From assembly GCA_021234155.1 (NCBI GenBank), contig JAJEKV010000286.1, forward strand, positions 1 to 64,000: a stretch of 64,000 bases of DNA, written 5' to 3'. This document shows, piece by piece, positions 3,007 through 37,115 of this stretch (positions within the stretch are counted from its first letter, which is position 1; each line of letters opens with the position of its first letter). A program made the position numbers and the translations under genes. Below the pieces are notes generated by a model. That model saw nothing but the letters and a program-made list of their open reading frames with translations, searched no databases and was not told the origin of the DNA. The stretch comes from Isoetes taiwanensis. Lineage: Eukaryota; Streptophyta; Lycopodiopsida; Isoetales; Isoetaceae.

Positions 3007-3035
3007 CTAGTAATGGTGCCGGCGTTCTTTGGGTA
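3007..3035 (-). mobile_element. Helitron 3' end (degraded hairpin)
   Basis: Read on the minus strand, this ends in ...GGCACCATTACTAG followed by T, the same terminal block as the better-preserved ends at 12225 and 36934. Helitron 3' ends are known to finish in CTRR, usually CTAG, next to a T and shortly after a GC hairpin. Here the hairpin has decayed. The element body would extend to the right of 3007. Confidence 0.6.
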
Positions 3036-3204
3036 TACGTGGGGAAAGCTTTTATGTGAGCGAAAGCATTTGGTTTCAAACTCCTTGTCATAAATAAAAT
3101 TCAATATAATTAGCAAATTTATAGAGAAGTTATCATTAGTTATCACGTACTCTACTCCACGTTTAAGTTGTGCCTATGGGCTCTCAAAAACTTTGGGCCT
3201 CATT

Positions 3205-3236
3205 AACTATAGAAAAAGTGCCCAGCGTTGTTGGGC
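3205..3236 (-). mobile_element. Inner Helitron-type terminal hairpin
   Basis: The plus strand reads CTATAG, five A, then GTGCCCAGC-GTT-GTTGGGC. The arms at 3220-3226 and 3230-3236 pair with one G-T, with the same three-base loop as the ends at 12236 and 36946. The terminal tetranucleotide is CTATAG rather than CTAG. It sits about 200 bases inside the end at 3007 and looks like a second 3' end in the same orientation. Confidence 0.55.
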
Positions 3237-3334
3237 TCAGTCTGAAATCTGTTAATGAACTTATAGCTCATGTTAATCAGCAATAGGCTCAGATAGAAAC
3301 CCGTCAATGAACTTACCAGCTATTGTTTAATTCG

Positions 3335-3662
3335 TTCATATTGTAAGTAACCTTGCTTAAGCACACTAAGTTTCATGCATCTACATTAATTATTGTTTGT
3401 CAATGAATTTACTACATCCAATCTAGCATTCCGGCCAAAGATCAAATATTATTAAGTATTACGATTATTGCAAGCGTTGTGCTTTCGTAAGTCATATGTT
3501 TCATATTGTAAGTAACCTTGCTTAAGCACACTAAGTTTCATGCACATCTACATTAATTATTGTTTGTCAATGAATTTACTACATTCAATCTAGCATTCCA
3601 GCAAAGATCAAATATTATTAAGTATTGCAGTATTCCAAACGTTGTGCTACGTAAGTCATATG
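3335..3662. repeat. Tandem duplication, period 165
   Basis: The sequence beginning TTCATATTGTAAGTAACC at 3335 recurs at 3500 and runs on to GTAAGTCATATG (3662). The copies differ by a few substitutions and small indels. No coding content is evident in either copy. Confidence 0.9.
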
Positions 3663-5229
3663 TTTTGCACAAAAGGCACTACTGCCCCAAATAATAAATT
3701 TGTTGCTTCATTTACAAAAGATGTTTTCGCGTTGGAATATCATGACCTGACCACGTACAAATGGGACAGTCCTAAAATGGTCGATGGTACTTGGTGTTCA
3801 ATGTCTTTAAGCTTATCAGCATATAAATCCTGCATTTTTTGTATGTGCTGCCCTGAGAAGCGCTAGTTATTGTCTTCAATTTGACTAACATCTTATCTCT
3901 TTCTTTCGATAGTGTTTCTCCTTTTGAAGCTCAATTAGCTTTCTTTTTCAAAATCTTTGTTTGTACCAACTAAATCGGATTTCTAAGCAAGCGCGCATTT
4001 ATGTTACAATGAAGAGCAAAAGCAAGCCCACATTATGGTTATTACTTTCATGATGCTTTAATTATAATAAAAAAATCAACTTTCTTTTGAGCTATTTGTT
4101 TGTAACTTTTTGTCCAAGTTGTCTTGCAAACAATTGTGCTCAAATAGGTTTTATCTGGAGACCATGTATTCGGTGATTTTACATGAAGGCGAAATGATCT
4201 GAGGGAAATAGAAAGCATAAGGGACATGTCAAATTGGTGAAGAATGGTTAATCAAGTCTGCTCTAGATGTCCTAGATGCCTATAAATCCTGTGGCACCTT
4301 GATCCTTGCCAAATAATTCTTCAACTTCTCAACACTCTGATGCAGCAAAGCAGCACTCTAGCAATCAATCATTTGTAAATTTTTGCCTTATAAACTGTGT
4401 GATTTTTATCAGGTCTAGCTGTTTTCCCAAGGCCCTCAAGTTGAGCCAAGTTGCTCTGCTGCGTAAATGCTCCGTGTAAACAGTATTTAGCCTGCACGGC
4501 GTTAACTCTCTCCACTTGGCTAAGATCTGGTTTTTGTGGATTGGTTGTATACCTTATAATAATGAAAGGCCTACATGTTTGACATTGGAGAGCTGAAGAG
4601 ATTCATATAGTGATCAAGAATGGCTAAAGCTGCCTCTGTAGAAGGTTCTATTTGCCAGAAATTTAGTACTGCATATTCTTGCAATCATTCTCTCAGCTGG
4701 GCCTCTAAATAAAGACCAGACTATAGTTAGATATAAAAGCTTTATGTAAACGGAATGAAAAGGAGGTGACTAAAGCAATAAAGCAAGAATGCGAGAAACC
4801 GTTCTCGTAAATCAACCGCGCTGTAATGCTCTATGCAGCTACCAATTACTCTCTGAGACCACCAACATAGAATCTATGTACTGCCAAAGCTTCAATCCAG
4901 AAAACCTTTCTACAAAATCGAACAGAAATCAAACCTTTCTTTCTTTGTTTGGCTTTACGATAGAACTGGCCTGCATGTCCCTGAGCCACGAAGGAAAGCT
5001 AAGCCTTTGATGGGAAGAAAAATATTTGGTTAAAAGCTGTGTTAGGAAGGTTCTGCCAGATCTGTAGATGCCACAGTCGCCAAAGCTGAAGCCTGAACCA
5101 CCATCGGCACGACTGACATAGAGCAAAAACATCAACAATTAAATAAATGTAAACAATTAAATAAATGCCCATCCAACAGGTAATAAGAAATGCAAAAGGG
5201 ACCTGGGATGCAGTCAAGATCCAACATTC
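3663..5229. other. Unassigned region
   Basis: No frame longer than 75 codons and no recognised domain. The 3642-3866 frame starts inside the tandem duplication and has nonspecific composition. I see no repeats or RNA genes here. Confidence 0.3.
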
Positions 5230-5341
5230 AACTCCGCATGGATACCTTAGCAAGCTCTGATTTAAGAAACATACAGCTTCATGTTAACTCTGCATGGATA
5301 CCTTAGCAAGCTCTGATTTAAGAAACATACAGCTTCATGTT
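5230..5341. repeat. 56-bp tandem duplication
   Basis: Two adjacent copies (5230-5285 and 5286-5341) start AACTC and include GCATGGATACCTTAGC and AGAAACATACAGCTTCATG. They are near identical (one C/T difference), so the duplication is recent. Confidence 0.95.
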
Positions 5342-5839
5342 AACTCCCTTAGGATGTTAACAAATGCTTTGGTTTCATCCATTGTTTTCATGTGACATCC
5401 TATGAAAATAAAATCAAATTTATAGATTATCAAATGCCTTAGAACAACAAAGAATCTTAGGTTTACCTTGTTCCTCTTAATGCCCTTCAATACCTGAACT
5501 GCAAAACTTCTTGAAGAAGACCTGTAGCATAAAACATAAAGAAATCATCAGTAACTTACGACACAACAAAAGCACCAGAAGCGCAGATAATGTTTCTAAG
5601 AAAATACCACATCCATCTCCTCTTACCATTTAAACTTACGCTTAATAATAAAAATCAAAGAGGCAAATAATGTTAAAACTTTTTGATCTTTGCTACCTCT
5701 GCCAAAGTCGCCTGCCGAGACCTTATGCATAGCGATCGTGAATATTTAATCCAGAATGATGGATGGATGGCTTTAGATCCAAGTTCTTGCAGGATGCTGA
5801 TGTGCAAATCCATTTTCTCGCTCCTTCCTCTACTTGTAG

Positions 5840-6160
5840 TTAAACCCCGTCTTTGAGTTGAGATTGAAGAGCAAGTCGCTTATCTCTGGTGAATAAATCG
5901 TCCTCATCGATCTGGAGCTTGCGCCATACTACGGAGGAAAAGCTCTTCGTTGCCCTTTTTTCTAAACTTGGTATGGGCCTTTGCTGTTCTGAAGCTTCCA
6001 CCCAAGCCATAGCCGCCTTGAAGCCATCACCGATAGCAGAAGAGGAGATGCCATCACAGAGAGTTGGAGGAGGTGCATCTGCTCGAAGCCCGTAGTGCTG
6101 GAAGGTGCAAGCCGCCTTCGCGAACCCTAGCCAAAAAAACAAATTAATCTCAAAGAAACT
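5840..6160 (-). CDS. Possible first exon of an unidentified gene
   Basis: This is a minus-strand open frame of 100 codons starting at 6142. It begins in hydrophobic residues (MFFWLGFAKAAC) and continues with a mixed charged part containing SSVVWRKLQIDEDDLFTRD. It lies directly downstream of a telo-box and site-II pair (6195-6236), as expected for the start of a plant gene. The segment 5700-5835 downstream also has coding-like character in another frame (ILQELGSKAIHPSFW), so further exons or a frame break are likely. A diverged relative of the 5' part lies at 14690-14905. No family recognised. Confidence 0.35.
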   Translation of the reverse strand, partial: SFFEINLFFWLGFAKAACTFQHYGLRADAPPPTLCDGISSSAIGDGFKAAMAWVEASEQQRPIPSLEKRATKSFSSVVWRKLQIDEDDLFTRDKRLALQSQLKDGV

Positions 6161-6194
6161 TACGTGGCATCATCTCCTCCGTTGGCTTGATCAA

Positions 6195-6236
6195 ATCTGG
6201 GCCGTCAAAAATTTTAGGGTTTTATGCACGACATAC
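6195..6236 (-). promoter_or_regulatory. Telo-box and site-II promoter elements
   Basis: The plus strand contains TGGGCC (site II) at 6199-6204 and TTAGGGTTT, the complement of the AAACCCTAA telo-box, at about 6214-6222. In plants this pair is typical of promoters of translation and cell-growth genes. Position and orientation suit transcription leftward into the 5840-6160 frame. Confidence 0.5.
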
Positions 6237-6279
6237 ACTAAAACTTTATAATAAAGGATGTTGAATGAATTCCAAGGTA

Positions 6280-6790
6280 TAACTGGATTAAACTGAATTA
6301 AACTGAATTAAACTTGCACAAGGCCTGTTAGACATATGGGTGAGATCAAAGAAAGGCACTAAGGCCTGTGGTATCTGTTTTTAGAAACATGCCTGTGGTA
6401 AAACAGAATTAGAAATTTACACAAGGCACAAATTTACACAAGACACAAAGCCATTATAAACTATTTTCTCGATTAAACAAAAGGCACAAGGCCTGGATTA
6501 CAGTCGGCACAAGGCCATCATATGTTAAAAGCGAAGATCCGCGAATACTTGAGAATTAGAAATTTACACAAGGTTCAAAAGGCACAAAAGCGCCATCATA
6601 TATTCAAAAAGGCACTAAGGCCATCATATATTACAAAAAGAGGCACTAAGGCACGTATCACAAGGGGTGAGTTCACAAGGGGTGAGATCAAATGAAGGCA
6701 CTAAGGCCTATATACCATCGTTTTTCAAAAAAAAAATACAAAGGCACAAAAGGCACGTAGACTAACTTGATCAAAAAAAAAAAAAGGTGC
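6280..6790. repeat. Degenerate AAGGCAC-type repeat region
   Basis: The region opens with three TAAACTGAAT units (6285-6315). It then carries many irregularly spaced copies of GGCAC(A/T)AAGGC, often with ATTTACACAAGG or ATCATATATT beside them. A-runs at 6729 and 6772 interrupt it. There is no constant period, so it reads as an old scrambled satellite. No coding sequence seen. Confidence 0.7.
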
Positions 6791-6919
6791 CTTACGGTAG
6801 GGACTTCAAGCTTCATCGTAAGAAAAAGTGAAAATTAGTTTAGAATACATAAAAAGAAAGCAAAAATTTAATGCATGCATGCTACTTACTACGTAGAACA
6901 TTTTGGGTTCAAAAAAACT

Positions 6920-7222
6920 TCATGTTCTTCTTAGTCTTCTACCTCTTCTTCTTCTTCTTGATGCGGTCTTCCCTTTCGATTCGTTATCGAGAATCTTGGG
7001 AATCAAATTGATCATCGAAGAAGCTTCATCAGAAGGAATCCGAAAGTAGAGGAGGATTCCACCTCTTACGAAAGCTTCAGAAAGATCTTGAGCTTTAGGA
7101 AGAGGTGGAATCGGACTGAAACTCGAGGCTCGGGGCTCGAAGTGCCTTGGGCTCTGGGGTTGAGACTCCGGCAAATGGTAATTTGGCCAAGATCCTATTT
7201 CATAGCGGTCATTTTGTGCCAA
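6920..7222 (-). CDS. Possible exon beside a GC-rich island
   Basis: A 100-codon minus-strand frame reaches out of a GC-rich island (7080-7340) that is unlike its AT-rich surroundings. It is Pro/Ser-rich near the start and ends in an Arg-rich tail (SRRRRRRGRRLRRT) encoded by a CTT-type simple repeat, so the C-terminus may be fortuitous. The island may be a first-exon/promoter region. No family recognised. Confidence 0.25.
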   Translation of the reverse strand: MAQNDRYEIGSWPNYHLPESQPQSPRHFEPRASSFSPIPPLPKAQDLSEAFVRGGILLYFRIPSDEASSMINLIPKILDNESKGKTASRRRRRGRRLRRT

Positions 7223-7552
7223 AGGTGTGGCGATTTCGGCTTAGGGGGAGGGAAGGCGAGGCGAGAGGGGGAGAGAGCGGTGGAGGGGAAGGCGGCGGCC
7301 AGCGGCGCCGACGATACGATTTGGAAGGAATTGGGCCCGATGCTTCTCCTTCGACCATAGCCTATAAAGGCTGGCGTGAAATTAATTCATAGAGCCTCAC
7401 GATTTTAGGATTTCATTACCATTAGCATCTTTATTCCTTAAGATTTAGTACCATTAGCATCTTTATTCCTAAAGATTTAGTAGGCAACTAATAATAACCT
7501 CGAAAGGACCATTATTTTATTTTCTAAAAAACATAAAAATATATATAGCTCC

Positions 7553-8000
7553 AACGTGCCACCTACGATGCACCACATGATTCATCACATGATTCACCAA
7601 ATGCACCGCATGATTCACCACATGCACCATTTGCATCACCAAACATGTTGGTCAATGAAAGTCAAACATGTAACAAAGGTCATGTAAAGGCTCAAGCATG
7701 CCAAGGTGGCTCAAATATGCCACCTAGGCTCCAACATGCCAAGGTGGCTCAAACATGCCGCGTAAGCTCCAACGTGCCACCTACGATGCACCACATGATT
7801 CAACACATGATTCACCAAATTCACCTCATGATTCACCACATGCACCATTTGCATCACCAAACATGTTGGTCAATGAAAGTCAAACATGCCCGCGTAAGCT
7901 CCAACTTGCCACCTACGATTTACCACATGATTCACCACATGTTTCACCAAATGCACCACATGATTCACCACATGCACCATTTGCATCACCACATCTATCA
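7553..8000. repeat. CACCACATGATT tandem array
   Basis: Three long units start at GTGCCACCTACGATGCACC or its variants (about 7556, 7775 and 7907). Each carries a run of (C/A)ACATGATTCACC words followed by CACCATTTGCATCACC; the first two end in AACATGTTGGTCAATG. The intervening segment also has CAAGGTGGCTCAAACATGCC repeats. The 121- and 129-codon plus-strand frames here are His/Met-rich translations of the array, not genes. Confidence 0.9.
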
Positions 8001-8304
8001 CGACATGTAACACCACATTGTCATGAATCTTTGAATACATCAATTTCTTACGGAGATTTGAACTCCACGAGTGTTGCTACAGTCACGAGGAAAAAGTCTA
8101 TTGTATACAATAGTATACAACAATGTACATTAGAGTGTCAATGAAAGAATAGGTTACAAGAATAACCTCTTTGGTTACAATAATACAAACATGTGATTAC
8201 AAGTAAAGATCTATTGATCTGTCAACCTCGACTTCATTACTACGACAAGCGTGCTTCACAACATCAATCATCATTGGCGGCGTGTCCAACGGCTCGCAAC
8301 TAGA

Positions 8305-8390
8305 AATTGGTACACCACGCAACAAACATATCGGGCCTCACATTGGATGAGTAATACCTTCAAATTTCTGAACTCACCTTGCATTGGGAT
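8305..8390. repeat. Non-tandem flank of the CACCACATG family
   Basis: The block containing GCAACAAACATATCGGGC and ACCTTCAAATTTCTGAA recurs with changes at 23545-23625, where it again follows a short CACCACATG array. The array plus this flank therefore belong to one dispersed element of unknown class. Confidence 0.75.
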
Positions 8391-8543
8391 AGTATGTCCA
8401 AGTCTACCATTCTTACTTGACCACAACTTTCTTTACGAAGACACATATAGCGGGACCACCACGACCCGGCAATCGGGGTGAGTGGGGACTTGTAATTTTC
8501 TTGTTGTGCGCTTTATGGTGCCAGGAATTTTGTGTTTGCATCC

Positions 8544-9175
8544 TCAACAAAACTCATGGCGGGCTCCGGAGCCCTTGTACATTTCTAGGCTTTCAAAATG
8601 GTACACACGGTGACATTTAAGCGGGTGACCTCCAAGACCTACAATGACATACACTTTGTCGGTCTTGCGCGATAACATCTTTGGCGAGAATGGTACATTC
8701 GAAATTGCAAGTTGAGGGGTGCAACGGTTTGTCCTTTGAAGCAAGCTCGTTAAAGCGGTAATGTGTAAATGGCGGATCCATGAAATGGAACCTACGTTCC
8801 ATGTCATGCTTGATCGAAATTGGTGCATACACACGCCAAAGTCAAAGATGCGGTAAAACAAGATGATTTAAGAAACAACGAGAAGACTTCAAATCTGGAG
8901 TTGTTTATATTAAATTACTAACCTCATGAAGAAATGGACTATCATCCTTTGAACCAATCCCTACTTTTCTCCAATATTACGATTGCCTCTTGATCAAGCA
9001 CAAGAGGCTCTGGCACATCCTTTAAACACTTCAAGTGGCAAGTGTTTGCGGTGGGATGTGCGCTCTTAACTGCTAGGTCCTCGTCTTTGGTGGTGTAAGT
9101 TTACATTCAGCAAATGGAAGATCATTGAAAACCTTGAGGAACATTGAAATAGCCAAGAAATGAACAATTGAAGTA
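8544..9175 (-). pseudogene. Unidentified coding-like sequence, frame-broken
   Basis: On the minus strand, coding-like sequence runs from about 9175 (FNDLPFAECKLT) through VPEPLVLDQEAIVILE to DDSPFLHE, ending at a plausible donor (GAG|GTTAGT, near 8920). It resumes after about 8870 with ISIKHDMERRFHFMDPPF and ECTILAKDVIAQD. At least two frame changes are needed, one of them around 8950. Residue composition is protein-like, with few stops in the consensus path. I do not recognise the family. It may be the 3' part of the gene at 9390-10580. Confidence 0.4.
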
Positions 9176-9389
9176 AAACTTTGTTTATATTAAAAGTCAA
9201 GAGAGGTTACATCATATACACAATAATACTATTTCTAGGCTTTAGTTCTATGTTTTTCATCATATTAATACAAATTTGACTCTCGGTGTCAAACATATTG
9301 ACATTTTGTTGCTTTTCGACATAACTTTGCACATTCCACGCCTTGACAACCCCGAAGCCAAACCTTTAGATCATTCATGAGGAAATTGC

Positions 9390-10580
9390 CATCTACTCAT
9401 CGGGGTTCATTTGTTTTGGACAGATCATGGTGTTTGGCGCATTGAGGTACCCTTTGTATCTCTTTGTCATCAATGAGAAGCCACGTTCTCTTTTGTGAAA
9501 CACGGAATTAAAATAAGTAGACCTTTTTTGGGGTGCTTCAAAAAATTGGCTTTTCTTTGTTAAATAAATTTGTGTTGAATACGGTGATCGACTCCATATG
9601 AACTTGAATTTGTCCTTGTGTTTCATCAATGCTCCCTTAACTATGACTCTCAAGTTTTTGAGCTGCGCATTTGGACCAAAGTGCTATATGAAAATTACAT
9701 TTGCACCAATCTATGAACTCGGCCCGGCTGGTCTAGTTACTACCCACTTGGTTACGTGTGTGATCAACTTAACATCATCTTCTTTGGCGGTGGGTATGGA
9801 CTCACTCTTGTCATAGCTTCTACCGAACTCCATTGTAGTAAAAACAAAGCGGATTGGGCTTAACCTTGTAGTCTTACGCATGGGCCGAGTTGGTGCGGCT
9901 GGAAACTTACGCCGGCATTTCTTGGTAGGGCTGGAAACTACTTCAGCATCTATTCGTCTGAGGGATGGAAAAACGCTTGAGAATGTCTTGGAGGTGTCTT
10001 TTGCTTGGAATTACGCTCTTGCTTTTTCTCGAGACACTTCCGGTGCAAAAATTTAACAGATTCGGTAACTATATGGGTCAAATTAAAAGAAGACAGGCAC
10101 AAAAGGTTGGAAGTTACCTTGTGACTTACATTCCACGAAAGCGATTTGTTGAGATCATAACCTGATGCATCTGGCTGATTTGGCCGGATTGGTGTGGAGC
10201 ATGACTTAATGCATCTGTTGATGCGGCGATTCTTGTCGGTTGGAGCACCTACTAGAGCTTGACTTGATGCACCTACTGATTTGTTGACATCTTGATTTGT
10301 CCGGCTTCTGTAACCTGATGCATCTTCGATTTGCAGAGTTTCTATCGTGTCTAATGCTTTCGAGAAGGGGGTGCGAGTGTCTTGTCCCCTAGCGACCACA
10401 TTGTACATCTATATCTACAAAGTAGGGATGAAGAAGTAAGCTACATATCCCAATTGCATTAAACAAGACTTGGTTACCTTTGAGGGTGAAAATAATTCCC
10501 TTTTTGGTGTGCTAGATGGACTCACATAGTCATTGCCACCGGTATGAGCAGTTAGACCTGAATTAGTAAGCGGCACCATG
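9390..10580 (-). pseudogene. Unidentified multi-exon gene remnant
   Basis: Minus-strand reading gives linked exons: exon A (about 10580-10478, ends CTCAAAG|GTAACC); exon B (10408-10130, acceptor ATATAG, donor AAT|GTAAGT); and exon C (from 10068, acceptor CCATATAG). The frame then changes near 9955 and runs on through VSSPTKKCRRKFPAAP, MEFGRSYDKSESIPTAKED, VKLITHVTKWVV and, after stops near 9710-9690, NLRVIVKGALMKHKDKFKF to a stop at 9393. The product would be basic and Ser/Pro-rich, possibly nuclear. Exon B carries a short repeat, DASGY. Consistent splice sites argue for a real gene; stops and frame shifts argue that it is broken. Family unknown. Confidence 0.45.
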
Positions 10581-10674
10581 CTCGCAAACCACGGAATTGA
10601 ATCACAATTGATTGTAACTATGCTTTGGTTTTTAACTAAGTTCAGACTTTTTACTCTCTTTCACGATGTTCTGT

Positions 10675-10927
10675 TTTTATATATCTAAAGTGTCCCCTAA
10701 AATGAGCGGCGATCTCATCCCGAGGGGGCACTTTAGATACCTAAAAACTGAGGAGAAGCAAAGACTAAGCCAACCAGGATCTTGTTTTATGTCGGGGCTT
10801 ACTCCCTTTTGAGTTTCTGCTTGAGGTATCTAATTAAGCCACACGGTGGCGATGTCATCCCTAGGGGGCAAATTAGATACGATAAAGAAAGCGAAGGAGA
10901 CTAAGCAGGGCTTACTCTCTTTTGAGC
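10675..10927. repeat. Two tandem hairpin-forming units
   Basis: Unit 1 has arms TATCTAAAGTG (10682-10692) and CACTTTAGATA (10729-10739). Unit 2 has arms GTATCTAATT (10826-10835) and AATTAGATAC (10871-10880). Both loops share GGCGAT(C/G)TCATCC and AGGGGGCA, and both units end in GGGCTTACTC(C/T)(C/T)TTTTGAG. The stem sequences differ between units while pairing is kept. Function unknown. Confidence 0.7.
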
Positions 10928-10996
10928 TACCTATAAGTGCTCACACATGTAAGTGCCTCGGTAGCTTGAAGTTGCTTTTGATCCTCCTACTCACAC

Positions 10997-11480
10997 CTAA
11001 GGCTTGTACCCATTTGTAGAAAATTCATGACAGCAATTCTCAATGCTGTGGTGATTACAAATCCTGCAAAATGAGCATAAATTTGTCAATGAGAATACAA
11101 TTATACTAAGCACTTCAGGGAATTTTGTTATGAAATACCTCAAAATTTGGCGGACATGGAAGATGGTATTGGTATTTGCATTGACAATCAAAGTTGGTAG
11201 TGGTTTCCCCATCCATCGGAGGATCTTGCCACAGAATGGGCCAGTCACTACCATAATCTTGACCTTATCAAGGTGCGGAAGTAGTGGATCCAAGACAAAT
11301 AAAGGAAGGCGGTCCTTGCAAGGCGAAACCTCTCTAACCTTGGTTCCGGCACTTTCAATGCGGTTGTGTGCGCTTCCACCGGCGGCCATGCCAGATTAAG
11401 CTCCTCGATTTTTGTGCGCTCAAGTTCTGGTAATAGTTCCTTCATTTTCGGCCTACGTATCTTGGCATATAGCGAATACC
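10997..11480 (-). pseudogene. Unidentified coding-like exons
   Basis: Minus-strand coding-like sequence starts near 11480 (KIRRPKMKELLPELERTKI), changes frame near 11390-11340 and continues through DRLPLFVLDPLLPHLDKV and GKPLPTLIVNANTNTIFHV. It reaches a donor (TTTTGAG|GTATTT, about 11120) and resumes after an acceptor (TTTTGCAG, about 11066) as ICNHHSIENCCHEF, stopping at 10997. The Cys/His-rich end (C-x2-HH...CC-x-H) suggests metal binding, but no family is recognised. It may be an upstream part of the same locus as 9390-10580. Confidence 0.4.
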
Positions 11481-11664
11481 GTCCCCGCGACTTGGTTTAT
11501 CCTTAATCATTCCTTCCCATTTTTTTTAAATCTTTATTCATCTTTCGATGCGGAACTCAAGTTCTTTGAACCTTCATTTGTAACACCTGCGGGGCTTTGA
11601 TCACAAGTTTGCAACCTTGCCTTAGCTTGAATCGCCGATCTTGTAGGGAGTTGATCCATTCTCG

Positions 11665-12220: not shown

Positions 12221-12224
12221 CATA

Positions 12225-12256
12225 CTAGTAATGGTGCCCAGCGTTGCTGGGCATAA
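12225..12256 (-). mobile_element. Helitron 3' terminus (well preserved)
   Basis: On the minus strand: GCCCAGC-AAC-GCTGGGC, then ACCATTA, then CTAG, then host T. On the plus strand the arms are 12236-12242 and 12246-12252 with a 3-base loop, a perfect 7-bp stem. This is the canonical Helitron 3' architecture (hairpin about 10 bases before CTRR, insertion between A and T). The element body lies to the right of 12225; its 5' TC end was not located. A degraded second motif lies at 12385-12425. Confidence 0.8.
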
Positions 12257-12794
12257 TTTCGAAACATGTAAATGTTGGGAACCTAAGCATTTGCATATAC
12301 ATTAACTTCTAGGCCATTTAAGGCTGTGCATTTGCGTACAATAAGTTTTGACCATTGGATCATTTTGGGAACCGGTAGATTGCAAGTGCCTCTATGAGTT
12401 GTTGATGTCTATGAGTTGCTGGGCATATGTTAGGAACTTATGTTGGGAACTGCTAAATGATACCAAGGAGGACTCCATTATGCATATACTCTAAAATATG
12501 CAATCTGAAAGAATATATATTATTGCATAATATAAATATCTGGAATGAATTATTTAGATAAAAGATGAATGGCATCATAACCATGCCCATTTATGCTTGC
12601 AAAAGCAATATTGATAATTGGGTATTACGCTCATTCGGTTTTTTGAACCGTTAATTGAAATGAATGTCAATTTTGTTCTTGTTCAAGTATCATTTCAGTT
12701 ATATTTCAAGAGGTGTGCCACAATTGTTTTGGTCCTATTCAACTATCTTCTTACCTTGTATTTTATAAAATTGTAGAAAACTAAAGCGGTTGTG

Positions 12795-12950
12795 TTTATA
12801 TAAGGAGCTTCTTATATGTTCACACATTGTGTTTTATATAAGGAGCTTCTTATATGTTCACACATTCCGATTTATATAAGGAGCTTCTTATATGTTCACA
12901 CATTCCACGGTTTATATAAGGAGCTTCTTATATGTTCACATTCCACATAT
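12795..12950. repeat. Four tandem copies of a palindromic 38-40 bp unit
   Basis: Copies start at about 12795, 12833, 12871 and 12911. Each contains ATATAAGGAGCTTCTTATAT, a 20-base near-palindrome with two mismatching positions, followed by GTTCACA(CA)TTC. Near identity of the copies indicates recent expansion. Spacers are too short and part of the repeat, so this is not a CRISPR array. Confidence 0.9.
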
Positions 12951-13399
12951 TCTTTGCTATCCGGCATCCTCTAAAAGGCGGAGACAACGAGAATAAGTAG
13001 TTATGGGCAAACAAATAGTGGAATGAGCCTATCGGACCAAGTTGGAACATTATCCTTTTGACATTTTTCTGCAACAACAACATCATTGCAAGTTGATTTT
13101 CCAAGTGACAAAACTTTTTTACTTGGCGGGATCTACAACATAATTAGTTTAAATAAAATTCCGCCATTTAAATTTGTCATTCAAAACTCATGTAAGGTAA
13201 ATATCCAATTGAGCTAGAAACTTACATGTCCATGTGGAGCCCTTAACACGGTCCATGTGGAGCCCTTAACACAGCTCAACACCATCTTTTCCAAAATTTC
13301 TTATGCATGAGCCATTGTATTGAAACTCTATAGTAGATTAAACAATTGAATTTCAAAGCCTTTTTCAACTAATAAGGCCATAATTAGCGTCTGAGGTGC

Positions 13400-14445
13400 T
13401 CCAAATTAACAACAAAACATAACGAAATCAAGTACTAAAGAACTATACCTTCTAAGTGCATGAAACCTTTCTTCTTGGCAAAGGGTTCTTTTATGCCCTA
13501 TTAAGCAAACTTCTCTTTTAGTGTTGCAAATGACACATGCTATGAGCCTTTTGTTAGATATACCTCCCATACGTACCTTTGCATTATACTCAAATATTAT
13601 TTGCTTATCATAAGAGCGAGGTAACAAATTCTCGACCGGTGGGCTATACTCACTATCCATGGGGAGACACATGAACTATCCATTCGGGGAGACACATGAC
13701 CCTTGTGAATACATGTAACGGACTTCAACCCTTTCATGTCATAACTATAGCAATTACAATCATTTACTCCAGTGAAATTGAAGGCTTCTTGTGAGTTCGA
13801 CAAATTGTATTCTCATGCGCATAATCATCTTCCTCAAAGAAGTGTTCATTGGTATATCATAAATGCGAATCTTTGCGGTCATTGGCGATGTAGTAAGAAA
13901 ATATCGGCTCTCTGGATTGAATCTCATTGAAATGCTTGTATTTTAAGCTATTGATGGGTTCGACTGTTATAGTTCGGATATCAACTTTGGGTCCCTGTGG
14001 TAACAAAAGCAAAATGATTCGTTTAAAAATGCCGACAAATAGAGTGCTCCACATTTGTGAATGCCATGGCTGGGGAAGCGTGTAAAAAGAAAGAATATCG
14101 ACACCATTTTTCCATCTAGCTAGGTATCGCACTTTAAAGAAATCTTTGCGTTTTCAAACTGTAAAGTAGAAATGAACATGCTTTGCTAAGAAAGGCTTAA
14201 TACCGCTTTGAAAATTTCTGGCGGGAACAAAGCTATACATGGGGAGAAAAATACTCTATTGTCGAAAACAATCCATTCGACGATGATCCTAAGAGCATAT
14301 GGGACCTCTGCCGCTGAAGCATAGAGAAACTTCTGTTCAAAACCCTCGTTCAATTGGCTACAATGAGATCTTAAGAAAATGAAGTGTTTGTATGCTTGCA
14401 CCTTTATATTTTCATACTGTTTGTAAAGAAATCGAGGATTCACGC
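13400..14445 (-). other. Coding-like minus-strand fragments, unidentified
   Basis: Open minus-strand stretches at 14443-14186, 14132-13857 and 13672-13406 have protein-like composition (ASAAEVPYALRIIVEWIVF; INSLKYKHFNEIQSREPIF; a Cys/His patch CVICNTKREVCLIGHKRTLC). The last patch resembles a broken RING-type zinc pattern but lacks enough ligands to call. Multiple frames would be needed to join them. It could be another eroded gene or a gene fragment captured by a Helitron. Confidence 0.25.
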
Positions 14446-14689
14446 ATTAGAACCAGATTCTTCATTTTCGCATAGAAAAGCGTTTCAAATCCCTAAGATT
14501 TCATGCGGCGATTAGCATCAAGGAACAACCGGATCAAAACTAAAAGCGGTCGAGCTGTTAAAGAAAGAAAAGATTACCATGAGGGCCGGAAAAAGGGACT
14601 GGTTCGAGGTTACCTTTGGATGTTGGGAAGTGCGATAGATTGGGCTGGAAAGGCGAATTCGAATTCAACCGTGGGTTGCTGAACTCTAT

Positions 14690-14905
14690 TGCTATGGCGG
14701 TACCCAGCTCAACCATCCGCGATCCACAACTCGGAGATTGTTCGAAGATGCGTTACGGAGGAGGAGCTAGCGGCTTCAGGCGTGCCACGGCCGCCCTCGC
14801 TAACCCTAGAAAAAAAAAACCCATGTTATCTTAAAATTTTGGCGTCGCATCATCTCCTCCATTGATTTCATCAAATTGGGCGCCCAAATTAGGGCTGGGT
14901 CCAAC
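14690..14905 (-). pseudogene. Diverged relative of the 6 kb first exon
   Basis: The plus strand shares with 6105-6200 the blocks GC(C/G)GCC(T/C)TCGC, AACCCTAG(C/A) followed by A-run, and GCATCATCTCCTCC(G/A)TTG, in the same order and spacing. In the minus-strand frame both start LG(F/L)A(K/R)AA and share APPP. Stops interrupt this copy, and its site-II/telo-box region is degraded (GGGCGCCC, TTAGGGCT). It looks like a dead duplicate of the 6 kb gene start. Confidence 0.4.
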
Positions 14906-16339
14906 ACTTACACAATAACATTATAATATAAGATAAGCGGCACCATATGACTGTCTGTAACACATTTGGAGCTACATACTCTGTGAACTGAAATTATCAT
15001 CCACAACTTTCGAAACTAGCGGCACAAATTTCCTACACATAACTTACAACACACCCAAATGAAAAGTAAGTGGTGTACTGATTGTTCAAGCTTGCTAGAC
15101 CTTCTTTGGAAAATAACAGTTCCAATATTAATTGCATCATATGGTGGTTCGAAGAAGAGGGTTGAAAAGTACCTATTTTTTGTTGATTTTCCCCGAGATT
15201 CTTCTTACGACTTGAGGAGGCTTGAATTGTGGCCTAGTCATTTCAAGAGAGGAAGCATCATCGTGGCGATTGCTCTGCTTCCTCACTATTTGAAATGATT
15301 GCATGCTTCCTCACACGTTGGGGACGGAGGCTTCAGACTTTTTTCTCTTTGTTGTTGCGAAACTCAACCAATTTATTTCTTTTCCTTTTGTGTGAAGGTA
15401 ATGCAACAGACCATAGTCTGTGAGGCCATGCCTCCCGGGCACACTTCACGCCTATGATTTTTTTGTAAAGGCACATATATTCATTATACCTCTCCTTGCT
15501 CATATTCTTCCTTTGCATGATGAAACAAAACAATATTCTAAAAACTTGAGAGAATCATGGGCATCCCAGAATCTTGAATGCAACCCACGTAAGTGGATTT
15601 TCCTAATACTTTCGGGTCCCCAAAAGCAGTTCGATTTCTTTCTTGTGTGGTAATGCTTTTCTTTTTGTACATTTCCTTGTAGGTGTATCGTGGCATTCAA
15701 GTCCGGTATGATCGAGCCATTTTGGTGATCGATCTTCTTGCGGAAATCGAAATGGTCTTCTTAGGATTAAGGGGGCGTGTCGAGTTTTTTTTGAGGAAAA
15801 TGAAAATTCAGAATCGAAATGGTCTTGCCGGATTAAGGGGGCGTGATCGAGTTTTTGAGGAAAATGATCGGTATGCGTTGCTGAATAAACTGAATAAGAC
15901 TGAAAGGACAAAATTTTGAATAAGTAATCATGTGTATTTTTGAAAAAATAACTCCCTCTCCCACTACAAATTGGTAGTTCCCACCACTTAGCACCCAAAA
16001 TGTGGTGCTAAAATGCCGTTTTGTTCCACTACAACATGCTTTCACCCGATGGCGAATACTAAAGTTTCATGTCACGAGAAAAGTATCACGGTGTTAAGTG
16101 TCTTTTCATCGTCAACAAAGAACGAGTAGATCATATAGGAGGCCCATGACGCCGTTGCTTGATCGTTTATTTCTTGAGGCCTCCTGCTATAAATTCACCG
16201 GACTAACCTATCTTGATTACTATGAACAGATCTGACTTTGTATCTTGTAGAGATAGAGCATTATACGATGGTGATCACCTTGAACTAGCTAGGCGCTGAC
16301 TTCCTAGGAACATAGTTAGGAAGAAGTAAGCAAACCCTT
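14906..16339. other. Unassigned region upstream of the helicase
   Basis: No Helitron Rep (HUH) domain was found here, although an autonomous Helitron should carry it upstream of the helicase. There is a short imperfect duplication (GGTCTT(A/G)...GGATTAAGGGGGCGTG, 15749-15780 and 15822-15845). A hairpin TTAGCACC...GGTGCTAA lies near 15989-16012. The remaining frames are short and unremarkable. Confidence 0.35.
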
Positions 16340-22990: not shown

Positions 22991-22999
22991 GACTATAGG

Positions 23000-23430: not shown

Positions 23431-23459
23431 AGGAATGTGAAATTTTTAGGGTTTAAATG

Positions 23460-25091: not shown

Positions 25092-25099
25092 ATAACAGG

Positions 25100-27201: not shown

Positions 27202-27454
27202 CAAGTTTATGTGATGGTTTCCATCAAGGATTCTATTATTCAATTTGGCTACATGAAGACCAAAGCATAGCATCACATGTAAAAGCGCTTTTGAAGGTCA
27301 TGGAACCTTTTACATTAATTGCGTCCTCTACTTTTGGTATTATGCTAGATATTATTTAAATTAAGAGATTTGGCACTTATATACTTACATAAACAACCTC
27401 TAAAGTGTATGTTTCTTGGCAAAACAGGCCCATAAGGTAAACCTATGTTAGCTT

Positions 27455-28529: not shown

Positions 28530-31500
28530 CATGGTAGTTTTACCTTTAAAAGAATACATGGTTAATATTCTAAGTTCAATTTCCCTACCTTAAAAGTGTG
28601 AGAGGGTATCACTTTTATAAACATGTTTTATGGTAAAAGTTAAATAATATCTATGTATGTTTTTGAAAAATTTTGCTCTATAGTTGTTCTTTGCTTCGAT
28701 CAATAAGATAATTTGACTTCAATGTGTTGAATTTCTTTTGCTTTATTCTCATCCTATATTTCAATGGTAAATTTTGCAAGTTCAATTCCAAATACAATGG
28801 TCAATATCATATACCAAGTAATGTTAAGGTTTGCAGTTTATGAAGTTAGCATTTCAATTGTTGTTACATGACTTCTAATTTGCACTCACTAAAGATAATC
28901 TATGACAGATCTTCCATATCTTTTAAGGAATATTGTGTTTGCATAAAATATGCGTTCGATGAACGAGTATAATTGAGTTCCAAATAGCAAGTTCAATGCA
29001 AATATATGAACATACATGAAAATATCTGAAGAATAAATAGCTCTCCAAACAATGGTAGTCAGGAATACTATGGACATGACACAAGTGTTGCTCGTGTCGC
29101 TCGTGTTACTCCATTTGCGAAGTGACGCTGTCGCACCATTTGTCTTTAAATGGCGCAGCTTCGCCGCGGCATTTACCTATAGACGGCCCATTTTCCTTTG
29201 CCTGGTGACTGACGCAGCTGGCCGATGTTGCTTCAAATGGCACAGCTGCTCCACAATACAATAAGATTTATTCAAATTGAACCAAAATAAATGGGGGAGA
29301 AGTGCATATAGTCATAAAGGGATAGGAAGCTGAATACAACAAGCTGTGGAGGCAACTGTTTTGTTCCAATACTTACTTCCGCCCTGGAAACCTTTGGAAG
29401 ATGACGACCAAATGTTTCGAAAGCAAGTCTTCAATTATGGGGTATCAAGTGAGTTAGCTTGGCATAAACTTCCAAAGCCACATTCGCCAAGTACTAAACG
29501 TTTATGTTACAACGAGGACTTATACACTAATTAACAACTTCAATGTCTGACAAAAACAACATGTTAAACGGTCAACTTCAATGTTAACATGTTAAATTGT
29601 TGCAGAACATGATTACTCCTGACGACAATAACACATCGATCAACATACATAACAATAGATTGGTTGGCATTCATGATTTGAAAATAACACCAAATGGAAA
29701 TGCTAAATAGGTATCCACATATAGTGGAGGAAATAGTGAGGGCTCTAGAAAAGAGAACTGTGGATTTGAAGGAAGAGGAAGCAAATGTACAACATGATCA
29801 GGTGACTCAAGATGGTTCAAATTTGGAGGAAGTGGACAATTTGCACGTGAATATGCAATTACTGGGAATTCGACTGCCTCGAGTGCTTCAGGTTGTTTTA
29901 TATGTTGAGAAAGTAGACACTTCGCATGAGAATGTCCAAGTGGTACAGGAATAGGTTATGATGGACAAAAGGATCATCGACTGAGTAACAAAGGTCATGG
30001 ACAAGAAAGAGAGGCAAGACGAGGAAGAAAAAATTCAAATAACATAATTAATTTCTTAATTATTAAATTCTTCAAGACTTCTTTGTAGTTAGTTCTTGAA
30101 TTCGACTTGAACTTCGTTTTCCTTTTAAATAGCATCCTTTCAAATAATAGATCACACACGAATTTGAAGAGCTAAGATGGTATAAGGTGAATTAAAACCC
30201 GAGATCTTGTGTTGTATACTTTCACATTCCATAATGCCTTAGGATTGCTTTAAAAGATTTAGAAGACACGTTTGAGATTGTCTATCCACAATGCAAAAGC
30301 AGAATATTTCTTGAGGGCACAAACTACATAGACGGATTTATGTCTCCGTTTTACCTCTTAGATGTCCCAAATGGATGTAATTAAGATGTGCTTGAATTTC
30401 TCATCTATTAAACCTACATTTCACATCGGAGGCCTAAGAACAAACCTAGTTATTAGAGTCAGAGGATATTTCATTTAGAGCCAAGATGCAATAAAACTAA
30501 TTATGAAAAGGTTTCATCAGAGTCCTTATATAACATCTAAGGAACTTTTCGCGTCTACGTTGACAGAATCGTAAGGGAATATTAGGGAATTTACATTAGA
30601 GAATTCCGCATCTTCAGAGACATGTCTATTTGACCGAGTCGACTACAGAGAACGCATCACAAGGCAAGAAGCTCCTCGACATGGATTTTTCGGTCCATTA
30701 GGTTCATATGAAAAATGTAGGATGTCGTTTTTAATGTTTTACTCGTCTTGTGACTCTCGGGAAGAGAAGCTATATGACGACCTTTGATTATCACAAGATA
30801 TCCATTGTTGCCTTTTGGTGTCAAAACAGTGCGTTCTATCACTCTCGGAGTAAAATTCTGGGAATTTAAAAAAACAGTGAAGATATATAGGCCAAATTAT
30901 TAAAACAAAATAAATTTTGAGAGGAACCATAGTAGAAAAACATTGTCTCGTAAGTTCGTGCGAGTATTTCATGTGTTTCTTCATGCTTTCTAATAGTGAT
31001 ATATGCTCGTGATTCAATTATGAAACTATCATAATAATGTAGTGGTAAATTAAATAATGACCCATAGGCATATGTAAATGCGAGGATATGCCCATAGTAG
31101 CAATCTTGCTATCATTTCTTTGTATGCCAATCCAATTAGGTTGAAATAGTCAATCATCGTGTGCAACTACCCGTGGTTCCTTCCCATTCAATCCATAATC
31201 TTCCCCACATCTATGGTCATAATCTTTTAGGGTAAGGTTTTCAAGACAAACATGATTACGTCTCTGTTTATCATGATAACTTTCTAAGATAAGGTTTGCA
31301 AAACAACAATGCTGAGGTCTATAAAATAATTTCACTACTTAGACATAAGAAGCATTATCGTTCCCCCTAGTCATTTCTTTCAATCTTATCTTGCTTTTCC
31401 TTCTATGTTTCTTTATGATTTAATATTTGAACTCAAATATGTTAATGGAATAAGGATAAATAACTTTGTAAGGTGCATATAAGTGTCTATTGAATGCAAC

Positions 31501-31930
31501 CTTGCCCAATTAATCTTACAATGACATATGGGAAGATTCTTAAGTAGGATATCCTAGGACGTTGCGTGGAATGAACTAGAGAACGGGACGGGAGGGGGGC
31601 AAAATAGCCCCGTAACTTCTGCAAAGGGGTTGCTCTCCTATCGTGTATGATGGGAGAGCAGCATCTACAAGGGGGTAGCCACTGTTTATTAAAAACACAA
31701 GACTTTGCTAAGTGAGATGAGCATAAGAAAATATCATTGATGTTGCACCTTGGCATATAGAGTCCATATGCATGCAACATTAAGCTTCTAATGTTACAAC
31801 CAATAATGGCAATATTTTGCTTCTTCAAACACTTTATTACCATTGACAAATTGTACAATCGCTAATATTTTGAGACTAATATAAAACTGAATATGCCTTT
31901 AGATGTCGACATATACAATTAAATTCATAA
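28530..31930. other. Unassigned region
   Basis: No recognisable gene. A plus-strand frame at 29694-29954 (86 codons, acidic, Glu/Val-rich) and minus-strand frames at 30657-31017 and 31487-31858 are open but without domain signatures. 29095-29245 is GC-rich with repeated AAATGGC(A/G)CAGCT words. A hairpin CTCTCC...GGGAGAG lies at about 31631-31657. Confidence 0.3.
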
Positions 31931-31936
31931 ATTAAA

Positions 31937-32850
31937 TTGCGTGCTCAAATTAAAAGGAAGATCGGATACAATTACGGTATCCATTCCCGCTTCAAATCAT
32001 CGCTTAAATTTCATTCTAAAGTAGCTTTTCGCATTTATGATAGACAGCTTATAGAATTTCCTGATGCTATAAATACCAATGGGATGCATCATTACATGCA
32101 TGCACGTCTGATCTGTGTTCGACTTCTTTCTTTACTGTTCTTGCTCAATTGCTCCAAGGTTATTTGCAAAGAAAATTCTCAAATTAAACAATAGAAAGTG
32201 AACTCGTTTATGGATTAGAGAATTAGGAAAGATGCACTTTTAACATCCGCAAGCTAATCGATGCTTTTTGCAGGTAACTTTGAATAGTGTCGGATCAGGG
32301 ATGGGCATTCCACTCTCAGCTGATGTAGTGGCGAGAACAAGTAATACTAACAAGTTCTTATGCATTGCATGACGAGATCGCCCCGATGAAGAAGTAAAAC
32401 ACATAAAATGTGGATGGATTGAAGGAAAGGCGGGGAGTAATTTTTTTCGTGCACTAGGAATTGAACGATATTTCCCGATTTTTTGTTCAGTTTGCTAGAA
32501 GACATGTATATCTGAACCAGCCCGGGAGTACAATTCACTCAATGCTTCAACCGATATCTTCCCTATGGATCCTTTGGCCCAATTTGCATTGTTCAACCCA
32601 ATTGCGGGGGTGGACACATGGAAGAATTAAAGTACTATTGTTCAAGCCACGAAATCAAATTGAAGTAAGCATCAGAATCTCATTATGTCGCCTACAAATT
32701 GTATGTAAACTGATATTGGATGATTGTGCAGTACCTAGCACAAGGAAGGACGCCAGCACAAGCAACAGCTGTACCATCAACATCAAATTTTGTATCGCAA
32801 CGAAATAATGAATCTGAGGTAGTAGCTGCAGCCAATGGATCATCTTAAAT
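31937..32850 (+). other. Coding-like fragments, unidentified
   Basis: 31960-32190 reads KVAFRIYDRQLIEFPDAI. After a good acceptor (TTTTTGCAG, 32272) the plus strand reads VGSGMGIPLSADVVARTSNT, then in the next frame CGWIEGKAGSNFFRALGIER, and at 32733 QYLAQGRTPAQATAVPSTSN to a TAA at 32848. These look like exons of one eroded gene. I do not recognise the protein. Confidence 0.3.
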
Positions 32851-32869
32851 GATGGTTCTGTCAATGAAA

Positions 32870-34120
32870 GCTAAACCATTGTTATGAGACCACAGGGAAT
32901 TCTAAGTGTACTTATGATAAGTTATAGTATTTAAAGGTTATATAGGATCGTCTCTAGCTAGTTTCTTAACAACAGACATGTGCTCCTCTTTTGTGGGAAA
33001 TGTTCATCTTTTGTATTTTGAAAAAATATTATAAATAGATTGATCTTTTTTGCAGTCAACAATGACTGTTTAAGCATAGAAGAAAGCAACAGGCAACCAT
33101 TTCTTAACACTCCTGCAACAATATTATAGGCATCCTTCTTTCACGGATGCACTATTCACTACTTGAGTCTCATCAAGAACTATATACTGCCATATTCTTA
33201 CCTTCAACAAAAAAGAGTATTCCAAAATTATAGCTGTACACTTTAACATCTACAAGAGGCGAGCAGCATGCAAATGTCAGCGACAAGAACACCATTGCAC
33301 TTGTGGACTACACAAAGGTAGATGAACAATGAATTGTTCCTTAACTACTTCATAAAAAAAAAAGCAGCACCAAAGAAAGTAACATACAATACATATGGCA
33401 TCTGGAAAATAGATACCATTCTACCAGTCACATGCTGCTAAAAACCAATGTTAAAATCCAGGAACACATCATTCCTAAGAATGAATCAGAAGGGGGTGAT
33501 ATGATTTCTCACATTCAAACAAAAGAAAAGAGGATCTGCAGATGGCACTTCTCACAAGAAAATAGAATAAAAGCGATGGGGTAAAAGTGTTTCTGACAAT
33601 GATGTAACAGAGATAGGAACTCATGATAGAAATGACCCAAGCAACCACAATATGCCTGTAGAGTTTGTCTTGCTTTAGATGAAATACAATATGCTTGTGA
33701 AGGTTGTGTTCCTTTCTTCTTCTTCTATATTTGAATACCTATATAACAAACTGCACTTTGGCAAAAACCAAATTGGGAAGACTGTTGAAGCACACCATGC
33801 AAAGTTCATGGAAGACAAACTCCACAGACTACTTTCTGTTTCCTACACAGTAGTAAAATTCGACCTTAGATTGCTTATGCTATCTTATGTGCTGTAAATT
33901 TTGACCACCAACAGTTGAATAATTTTATTGATTTCCAAAATAAATTGCATCAAAAATTATGCAGGTATACAGAAAATTAGACTCTTCTTCAAAAAGATAA
34001 GTAGTAAAATATATTACTTCCTGTGATTACAAAGTATGAACAGTTAGTATATGGTCATGCTAATAGTTGTAAGTGGAAAATTCACAGAGACAACAAAATA
34101 TCTGTTATACAAAATTACAT
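32870..34120. other. Unassigned region
   Basis: AT-rich, frames under 75 codons, no domain or repeat recognised. Confidence 0.3.
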
Positions 34121-34122
34121 AT

Positions 34123-34890
34123 TCAGAACTTCTTCTGGTCATGCTGTGCTCCACCACGATAGATGTTCATTGTCCATTCAAGCTCGCCTACGACTTGGAA
34201 TTCCAATATATCACCAACTTTAAGAGAATAGTGGCTGACTAGCAGGTCCCAATTATGACTCAAACAATATCGACTGGTTTTTGCTTTCAAATTAGTGTCA
34301 ATACCATCTGGTCCATGAACAAGGATTGCAGAACCCCTTGGAGGCATTCGCCAACGATCTTCCTCCTTCAATCTCTGACACAGAAAATAGAGAGCTAAGA
34401 ATTTCCGGAAGGAAAACTAATCAAAGGGGAAATTTTTACTCACCAATCGATGAATAAATACGCGTTTGAGCGGTGGAACTTTAAAAGGTTTCTTAATGTC
34501 CGGTTCATCATCGATACATTAACGAGTCTTACGGTTCTTTTTGCTACATGTCTTTGTCGAAGCATTAACAACTTCCCAGTGCTTTTTCCATCCTCTACGC
34601 CAAATTCCAAGGGCTTTGGTCGATTAACGCCATCGCACTTCTTTGCAAATATCCTGTTGCTATCCTCCGATATCACACAAAAATAACATCACCATCTCTA
34701 AAAAGATTATCGGTCAAAGAAAGCTTCCCATCCTTGGCCAAAAACAATTTTGGCCCCTGCAGATGATGCCACAAAAACTTGATGTTCTTTCCCATTTGGT
34801 CCTACAACTATCACATAACAATGCGAGCAAAGCCAAAAGGAACATGATGGAGCTCCTCGGAAATAAGAAAAATGAGAAGTGCATAGCGTA
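34123..34890 (-). pseudogene. Two-B3-domain protein, inverted paralogue of 24.2-25.1 kb
   Basis: On the minus strand from 34850: HHVPFGFARIVM, then GPNGKEHQVFVASSAGAKIV, FGQGWEAFFD and, after stops and a shift, FRDGDVIFV: a B3 domain close to the consensus. Next come VISEDSNRIFAKKCDG and a basic/acidic linker whose end DDEPDIKKPFKVPPLK aligns with DEEEPVSKKAFRVPLLK of the plus-strand copy. An intron (acceptor TCTGTGTCAG) precedes the second B3: DRWRMPPRGSAILVHGP, RYCLSHNWDLLVSHYSLKVG, DILEFQVVGE, open to a stop at 34123. The second B3 is intact; the first is broken. Confidence 0.75.
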
Positions 34891-36270
34891 GAGAGAGATA
34901 AAAAATCTACTAAAGCAACCTACAAGTAAAAAACGACTAGGCTTACAAGCAAATGTTCATAATCGACATGTATTAGAAAACTTCTTGCCGTCGCCATCAG
35001 TCTACCTCCGAACATCTCCATGCAAGATTAATTCGTTCTGCTGGAGGATATTTGACTGCTTCAATATAAAAAATAATATATATTATACTATAAATATGAT
35101 TCTTAAACTATATGATTCTTATTTAATGATGACGTTGCTGACATATATACTACACATAATCCTATGAAAATACACAAACACACTAATGGTTGTATAAAAA
35201 GAAAATATGCAATTAGTGCACTATAATACTTGAGTAAATAAAATATCCAATTATGCCTAATGAGGCATTCAAAATTTAGCAAGGCCTGAGTTTATAGTAA
35301 AATAGGAAACAAAAGAATATTACAAGGGCCATTGTTACATGGAGAATGTGTAGTTGTGATCTTTGTTGAAGATACATATTTGATAGCAAAGATTCTATTA
35401 GCCAACTCTACGATGTAATAAAACATCTTATTGGGTATTCGACTAATCTCCATAATACTTCACCAAGCCAAGTCTTATTCCCGAGCAGAACACAATGCTT
35501 CATCTAGTCAACTAAATGCCTTTCTGGATTGTTTCTGGATTGTTTTAATGTCTTTGGAAATCTGTCTACTATAAGTCATAGATATAAATCTTCCTGTTTC
35601 TTAACTACACCTAGTTTTTTCTATGTGTACGTTTGTAGGGGTCAGCTTTGTGTAGTTTTGGAATATTATTTCCTAGCATCACAAACTATTATACAATTTC
35701 AAGAATTGCAAATATACTTCTCAAAGTTCAAGTGTAACATGTAGGCATCTCATGTACCAATGTATTAATTGCAGGCATCTCATGAGATACCGTATTAAAT
35801 AATATCTTATGGAAATCCATATGTAATTTGAACATTTGCCCCCTTTTGTATCGAGATAATTATATCAAATTACTCTTCCTTATAGACATCTTCTTGACAT
35901 TCACAACCATCCATTACTATTACATGCAAAGTCAAATATTTGGCCCAAAAATAAGTCTCTTTAGTAACTCAGTCCACTAAATTTAAACGAGTCGGAAAAA
36001 AGAAATCTTCATGGCAAAATGAAAACATCTCTAAGAGAAAAATTCTTATAGGGTGCCCAAGATCTCTAAATTATGATCTGTTCCTACATGATGTTAACGC
36101 AATTTGTAGATATTCATTCTAACTAACATAACCGGATCCAGAACCTTAAACAATCCCACCAAAAATAAATCTAAGGAAAATTGATTCGTACAATACACAT
36201 TTCATTCTGCACAGACCTTAAATAACAAGGGACTTGTTTATATATATGATTTATGCTATGTACTAACCTT
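34891..36270. other. AT-rich unassigned region
   Basis: No coding sequence recognised. A short repeated word, GGCATCTCATG, occurs at 35743 and 35773, the second within the palindromic ATCTCATGAGAT. Confidence 0.35.
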
Positions 36271-36274
36271 GTAT

Positions 36275-36567
36275 TCATGCTTCCGCGACTTAGGAGTCCC
36301 ATTGAAGGCGTGGGCCAAATGACCCCTCTGTGTCCTTCACTCGGGCATCTTTTTATAGATGGCCCGGGATAGACGGAGGGCCCTGCTCATGGCGAGATGG
36401 TCGCCATGGGAGGGGAAAGTCCCCGTATGTATACGACCGGGTGTCGTATATATACAGGGAGCGTCACAGTTCTCCTTCCTCCTCACTTGCTTTGTAATAT
36501 TACCATTCTTTTAATATATTGATGACACAGTTCTTAAAAAAAAAAAAAAAAAAAAAAAAAACAAAAA
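36275..36567 (+). mobile_element. Retroposed GC-rich segment with poly(A) tail
   Basis: A 250-base segment far richer in GC than its flanks ends in 26 consecutive A (36536-36561). It includes a perfect hairpin CATGGCGA-GATGG-TCGCCATG (about 36389-36409) and TATATATAC at 36449. The tail marks it as a target-primed insertion: a LINE 3' end, a SINE or a processed transcript. No tRNA A/B boxes were seen. Target-site duplications could not be delimited. Confidence 0.6.
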
Positions 36568-36732
36568 AGTTTTCTGCCAAATTGAGAAGATTGATTGATA
36601 TACGGTTTATTTACATTTATTAAGCTTGGAGGAGCTTAAATACATGCATTGGACAATGCTTACATATTACAAATTCATGAAGTTTATTGTATATTGGATT
36701 GGCATATTTTTGTTTTAAATAATCTCCATGTT

Positions 36733-36880
36733 GATCCATGCAACATATGTAGAACTATAAATGTAACATATGTTCTAGGCACATGTATATTGTTTTTTAC
36801 TGATGGTGATCCATGCAACATATGTAGAACTATAATTGTAACATATGTTCTAGGCACATGTATATTAATTTTACTGATGG
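36733..36880. repeat. 75-bp tandem duplication
   Basis: GATCCATGCAACATATGTAG starts at 36733 and again at 36808; both copies run to CATGTATATT and TTTTACTGATGG. The 80-codon frame here translates the duplication and is not a gene. Confidence 0.9.
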
Positions 36881-36933
36881 ATGTTTTGTAACATTGTTCT
36901 CTCGGTTCTATGACATAGATATTTTAAAAATAA

Positions 36934-36966
36934 CTAGTAATGGGTGCCCGGCGTTGCAGGGCATAA
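36934..36966 (-). mobile_element. Helitron 3' terminus
   Basis: On the minus strand: GCCCTGC-AAC-GCCGGGC, then ACCCATTA, then CTAG, then T. The arms are 36946-36952 and 36956-36962 on the plus strand with one mismatch. It is the same family as the end at 12225. The element body extends to the right. Confidence 0.78.
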
Positions 36967-37084
36967 GTACGGGCGTATGCGGCAACCGTGAGGTTGTAGA
37001 CAAACTTATAATACCTAACTATACTTGAGATGAAACAAAGAGGGAAATAGGAGAAGTAAGATGTGCATTTTCCAAAATCGTAAT

Positions 37085-37115
37085 TTCTAAACTAATAGGT
37101 GCCCAGCTTTGCCAA
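37085..37115 (-). mobile_element. Inner Helitron-type terminal motif (degraded)
   Basis: The plus strand reads CTAATAGGTGCCCAGCTTTGCC: same left arm and spacing as the outer end, but the right arm is mutated (GCCAAGA). It lies about 155 bases inside the end at 36934. Confidence 0.45.

Follow-up and report, generated by a model that had tools for sequence, protein, structure and literature searches.

Multiple termini have been described in maize, where 28.7% of the helA Helitrons carry them; the intact CTAG was missing in 99 of 100 sampled inner 3' ends, which the authors derived from nested Helitrons (PMC3288121). Experiments on the Helraiser element showed that its hairpin acts as a terminator and is open to bypass (PMC4778049), and composite Helitrons formed by self-insertion were discussed in Fusarium (PMC5148889). 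Three loci of Isoetes taiwanensis, all located in the window (the whole stretch of 64,000 nucleotides that was analysed), are new examples of this known, published process. They are similar to the maize helA pseudo 3'-termini (PMC3288121) in the intact outer CTAG, the damaged (CTAT-like) inner CTAG, the orientation and the proposed nested origin, while the hairpin (GCCCAGCGTTGCTGGGC) and the host genome are different. With Helraiser/Helibat (PMC4778049) they have in common a hairpin near CTAG as a bypassable terminator, whose bypass adds downstream sequence and a new end; however, that is an animal Helitron studied in cell culture, where no palindrome could be identified at the new ends under study; in the present case the 3' end of another Helitron serves as the new end. 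Self-insertion was also proposed as the source of multiple termini in the FoHeli composite Helitrons of Fusarium (PMC5148889), where the 5' ends are multiplied and not, as here, the 3' ends.

All three Helitrons are in minus-strand orientation, which puts the 3' end of each at the left in window coordinates (Table 1). An earlier sequence-only reading had placed Helitron-like 3' ends at 3007, 12225 and 36934, and this was borne out, since CTAG occupies 3007-3010, 12225-12228 and 36934-36937 with A before each. The features are those of plant Helitrons, namely a 3' end in CTAG (CTRR), a GC-rich hairpin some 10 bp farther in, and insertion at an A/T target with no target-site duplication. The 3' boundary of Helitron 1 was set by the alignment with the copies L039/L040. 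The minus-strand 5' ends start with TC (TCTTATATTATAATGTT at locus 2, TCCTTTATTATAAAGTT at locus 1), that of Helitron 1 being AACTTTATAATAAAGGA followed by T, as in other copies, and both elements with a located 5' end (loci 1 and 2) are flanked by A on one side and T on the other; for the locus-3 element a 5' end was looked for and not located. The longest listed open reading frame (ORF) of Helitron 1 has 100 aa and the longest inside Helitron 2 has 91 aa; because neither holds an ORF above 100 aa, and thus the Rep/helicase of an autonomous Helitron is not found within them, both elements look non-autonomous. The outer hairpins, claimed at all three loci, are preserved in part: that of locus 2 folds with -9.5 kcal/mol (z -5.4), but that at 3007 is itself decayed in the window copy (-0.7 kcal/mol), being intact in the relative L040. 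Genome-wide, ACTAGTAATGGTGCCCAGCGTTGCTGGGC has 1788 exact occurrences against 0 for the backward control (1.66-Gb genome), and a second end type, CTAGTAAYGGGTGCCCGGCGTTGCCGGGC, has 429.

Table 1. Helitron features of the window (positions in window coordinates)
Feature	Positions	Strand	Description
Non-autonomous Helitron 1	3007..6258	-	3' end at 3007, 5' TC end at 6258; flanks A at 3006 and T at 6259
Locus-1 3' module, ~205 bp	3007..3216	-	Outer CTAG and decayed outer hairpin; common to at least 6 subfamilies with unlike interiors
Locus-1 inner 3' end	3207..3236	-	CTATAGAAAAA and GTGCCCAGCGTTGTTGGGC; CTAG broken, hairpin kept at 3220-3236
Non-autonomous Helitron 2	12225..14933	-	3' CTAG at 12225; 5' end AACATTATAATATAAGA followed by T
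Locus-2 outer 3' end	12225..12252	-	CTAG and GCCCAGCGTTGCTGGGC hairpin
Locus-2 inner relic	12392..12442	-	17-bp tandem repeat (CTATGAGTTGTTGATGT) running into GTTGCTGGGCATATGTTAGGAACTTATG; without left arm and CTAG
Locus-3 outer 3' end	36934..36962	-	CTAG and GCCCGGCGTTGCAGGGC
Locus-3 inner relic	37099..37116	-	GTGCCCAGCTTTGCCAAG, left arm only; 5 mismatches, profile rank 4

Some other repeats were observed in the window. A 165-bp direct tandem repeat with 93% identity occupies 3335-3664 inside the locus-1 Helitron, and an inverted repeat (37870-37946 and 38128-38204; 77-nt arms, 94% complementary, 181 nt apart) lies inside or near the locus-3 element. Identical stretches at 52872 and 61323, 8.45 kb apart, are possibly two retrotransposon long terminal repeats.

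The inner motifs were assessed with a profile covering the hairpin and the bases after it. It was derived from 37 non-redundant ends, from which the retrieved copies of loci 1 and 2 were excluded, and was scored on both window strands and on 30 random sequences of 128 kb as a control. The top four hairpins of the whole window, 12234 (38.2), 3218 (34.4), 36944 (30.9) and 37099 (15.5), are all on the same strand, and the random maximum is 13.8. Scored as a complete hairpin, the locus-2 inner motif is not recovered (rank 125), but its right half at 12415-12449 takes rank 2 in the window with 31.2 versus a random maximum of 19.3. Since these scores top the random maxima, all three inner motifs exceed chance, 37099 being the weakest match. 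As to the second, diverged hairpin that was proposed inside each end, the resemblance therefore stands at all three loci, but a stem is formed only at locus 1, where the motif (1 mismatch versus the core, profile rank 2) folds weakly as a single strand (-4.4 kcal/mol, z -2.1); the inner motifs of loci 2 and 3 form no hairpin, with -1.0 and -0.7 kcal/mol, values that shuffled sequences reach as well. At locus 2 the relic consists of the loop, the right arm and subterminal sequence (about 12406-12442). Loci 1-3 all have an end-like inner sequence in the same orientation with a damaged CTAG, this sequence being only a half relic at loci 2 and 3.

Chance resemblance at one or more loci is conceivable mainly for locus 3, whose inner motif has 5 mismatches and neither hairpin nor CTAG, and exceeds the random maximum by 15.5 versus 13.8. 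Nevertheless, the relative L074 has a decayed counterpart at the same place, at 152, a sister subfamily (L077, L084, L085, L089, L091, L092) has a stronger, other hairpin-like inner motif at 126-131 bp, and loci 1 and 2 are far above the random scores, so that such a coincidence is improbable.

The inner motifs are unevenly distributed among the relatives of each locus. The locus-1 inner hairpin is present, whole or damaged, in L040-L042 (GTGCCCAACGTTGTTGGGC, a perfect stem, in L040), L043-L050 are without a 76-bp stretch that contains it, and it is absent in L051 and L062, while the remaining subfamilies with the locus-1 module diverge at AACTATAG. Just inside the 3' end, L042-L049 have a subterminal tandem duplication of about 40-80 bp, the length of which varies by copy. 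The relatives of locus 2 share the 3' region and the 17-bp tandem repeat, in several of them running into GCGTTGCTGGGCATA. Among the relatives of locus 3 similarity is mostly lost before the inner motif, which is absent from most of the others aligned. These alignments indicate that the three loci are three subfamilies and not, as had been suggested as a possibility, one family with a conserved second terminator, because sisters of loci 1 and 3 are without the inner motif and the spacing is not fixed.

The frequency of inner ends was estimated in an unbiased sample of 48 ends chosen regardless of inner motifs (GCCCGGC-type ends are not in the sample), of which 5-6 have an inner end on the same strand not more than 1 kb away, at 124, 414, 595, 749, 876 and, doubtfully, 969 bp, in comparison with the 28.7% of maize helA with multiple termini (PMC3288121). 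Only 1 of the 48 has an inner end at 100-220 bp. Genome-wide, exact same-orientation end pairs are spaced by 90-120 bp in 3 cases, by 121-181 bp in 26 and by 401-461 bp in 12. An enrichment near 150 bp was rejected, as the 26 versus 12 places are reduced to about 12 versus 10 lineages when distinct sequences are counted, one family alone making up 11 places; with similar numbers of lineages near 150 bp and near 430 bp, no spacing is clearly favoured. The repeated spacing of 155-200 bases noticed earlier accordingly dissolves into a range of about 110-200 bp, as frequent per lineage near 430 bp. Orientation bias (26 and 12 same-orientation pairs versus 0 and 0 facing ones) was likewise rejected as a test, because facing 3' ends so close need elements shorter than the gap, so that geometry alone predicts none.

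A conserved subterminal second hairpin, functional in transposition of the family, would agree with three loci in one window and with the inner hairpin kept at 126-131 bp in several copies of the locus-3 sister subfamily. However, this structure is missing in most locus-3 relatives and deleted in the close locus-1 relatives L043-L051, the spacing is not fixed, a 61-bp interval holding roughly as many lineages near 150 bp as near 430 bp, a single unbiased copy has an inner end at the distance in question, and the inner arms and CTAG are decayed, which together make this explanation, akin to the conserved subterminal structure of the sequence-only reading, extremely unlikely. Because the unbiased sample and the genome-wide spacing show the process at many loci, the coincidence of three loci in the window is a cluster of that process and not a family trait.

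The question of which CTAG serves as the insertion end has a consistent answer. Copy homology starts exactly at the outer CTAG, and A stands before it in 91 of 96 copies not selected for A; since homology stops there while the flanks differ, the outer CTAG is evidently the insertion end. Two-ended copies have also moved as units, using the outer end and passing over the inner one, and are found between unrelated flanks with the inner CTAG either intact (L142/L143, both ends intact, 99% identical) or broken (L135-L139, L150/L151); the locus-1 relatives L040-L042 also count as mobilised in this way. L150/L151 is one chimera, 99% identical, at two unrelated sites, with an L059-like module in which the inner end abuts AACTA (L151) or AAGTA (L150). 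The copy L054 is equal to L059 (98%) up to AACTA and then has an intact CTAGTAATGGTGCCCAGCGTTGCTGGGC, 199 bp inside the outer 3' end; because L059 continues with TAGC, the target was A^T, and L054 is recognisable as a fresh nested insertion at that site.

More complex arrangements were noticed as well. L140, L141 and L145 each have, in a stretch of a few hundred bases, three successive same-orientation 3'-end-like hairpins. In 8 of 144 copies (L010, L046, L051, L059, L122, L136, L143, L144) the 3' CTAG abuts the apparent 5' end of a second Helitron, ATTATAATATAAGA being followed directly by CTAG; these head-to-tail junctions are exact, as from insertion at a resident A^TC or from rolling-circle tandem copies.

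According to these data the inner motifs are probably bypassed 3' ends ("pseudo 3'-termini") of chimeric Helitrons. Alternatively, an element could have copied its own 3' end inward by local tandem duplication or template switching. In favour of this are L147 (a local direct repeat of the end plus flank), the tandem duplication of some 80 bp next to the end, on its inner side, in L042-L046, and the 17-bp tandem repeat that the locus-2 relic adjoins. On the other hand, the sequences inside the inner motif and inside the outer end are unlike each other at loci 1 and 3, and several chimeras have unrelated sequence inside T1 versus T2, making duplication an unlikely source of the window loci.

The bypassed ends most likely originated as follows. 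Helitron A would land, oriented like a resident Helitron B, at an A^T in the final few hundred bases of B. At the next transposition of A replication would start at its 5' TC, miss the stop at its own hairpin and CTAG, and end at the hairpin and CTAG of B. The product, consisting of A, the old terminator and the last 100-210 bp of B, would insert by the end of B, and the old terminator of A, now dispensable, would decay by loss of CTAG or of one arm, or be deleted. The outer CTAG as insertion end, the fresh nested copy, the chimeras at unrelated sites and the module with several interiors are recorded in the sequences themselves; the strand-by-strand replication step is inferred from Helraiser work, and for each of the three window loci we infer an origin by nesting and bypass. 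The read-through of the first hairpin that was suggested earlier is supported in outline, with the outer CTAG used and chimeras with a bypassed end at unrelated sites, but the 3' end of a resident Helitron accounts better for the new end than formation in flanking DNA does.

Several observations stand against this origin. A direct nested precursor was found for none of the three window loci. The locus-1 relic reads AACTATAGAAAAAG and not A directly before CTAG, and hairpin-less relatives also have AACTATAG; half a terminator is left at loci 2 and 3, with locus 2 confounded by its 17-bp tandem repeat, and doubled ends also arise by local tandem duplication, as in L147.

The locus-1 module deserves separate consideration. 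Two independent inner ends (L054 and L150/L151) lie at one A^T of it and a third (locus 1 and its relatives) adjoins, at least 6 interiors join the module there, and 14-16 AT sites are possible. This clustering was noticed post hoc, and two, perhaps three, inner ends at one A^T may be less ordinary than the rest. It is a speculative and rather doubtful idea that the ~205-bp module works as an exchangeable end cassette, with AACTA^TAG close to its inner border as a hot spot of self-insertion.

In summary, a nested insertion, a chimera that has moved with its inner CTAG broken, and decayed relics occur together in one genome; such states would be expected on the proposed route to Helitrons with several 3' ends. 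The set also shows how one 3' end can pass between unrelated Helitron interiors.
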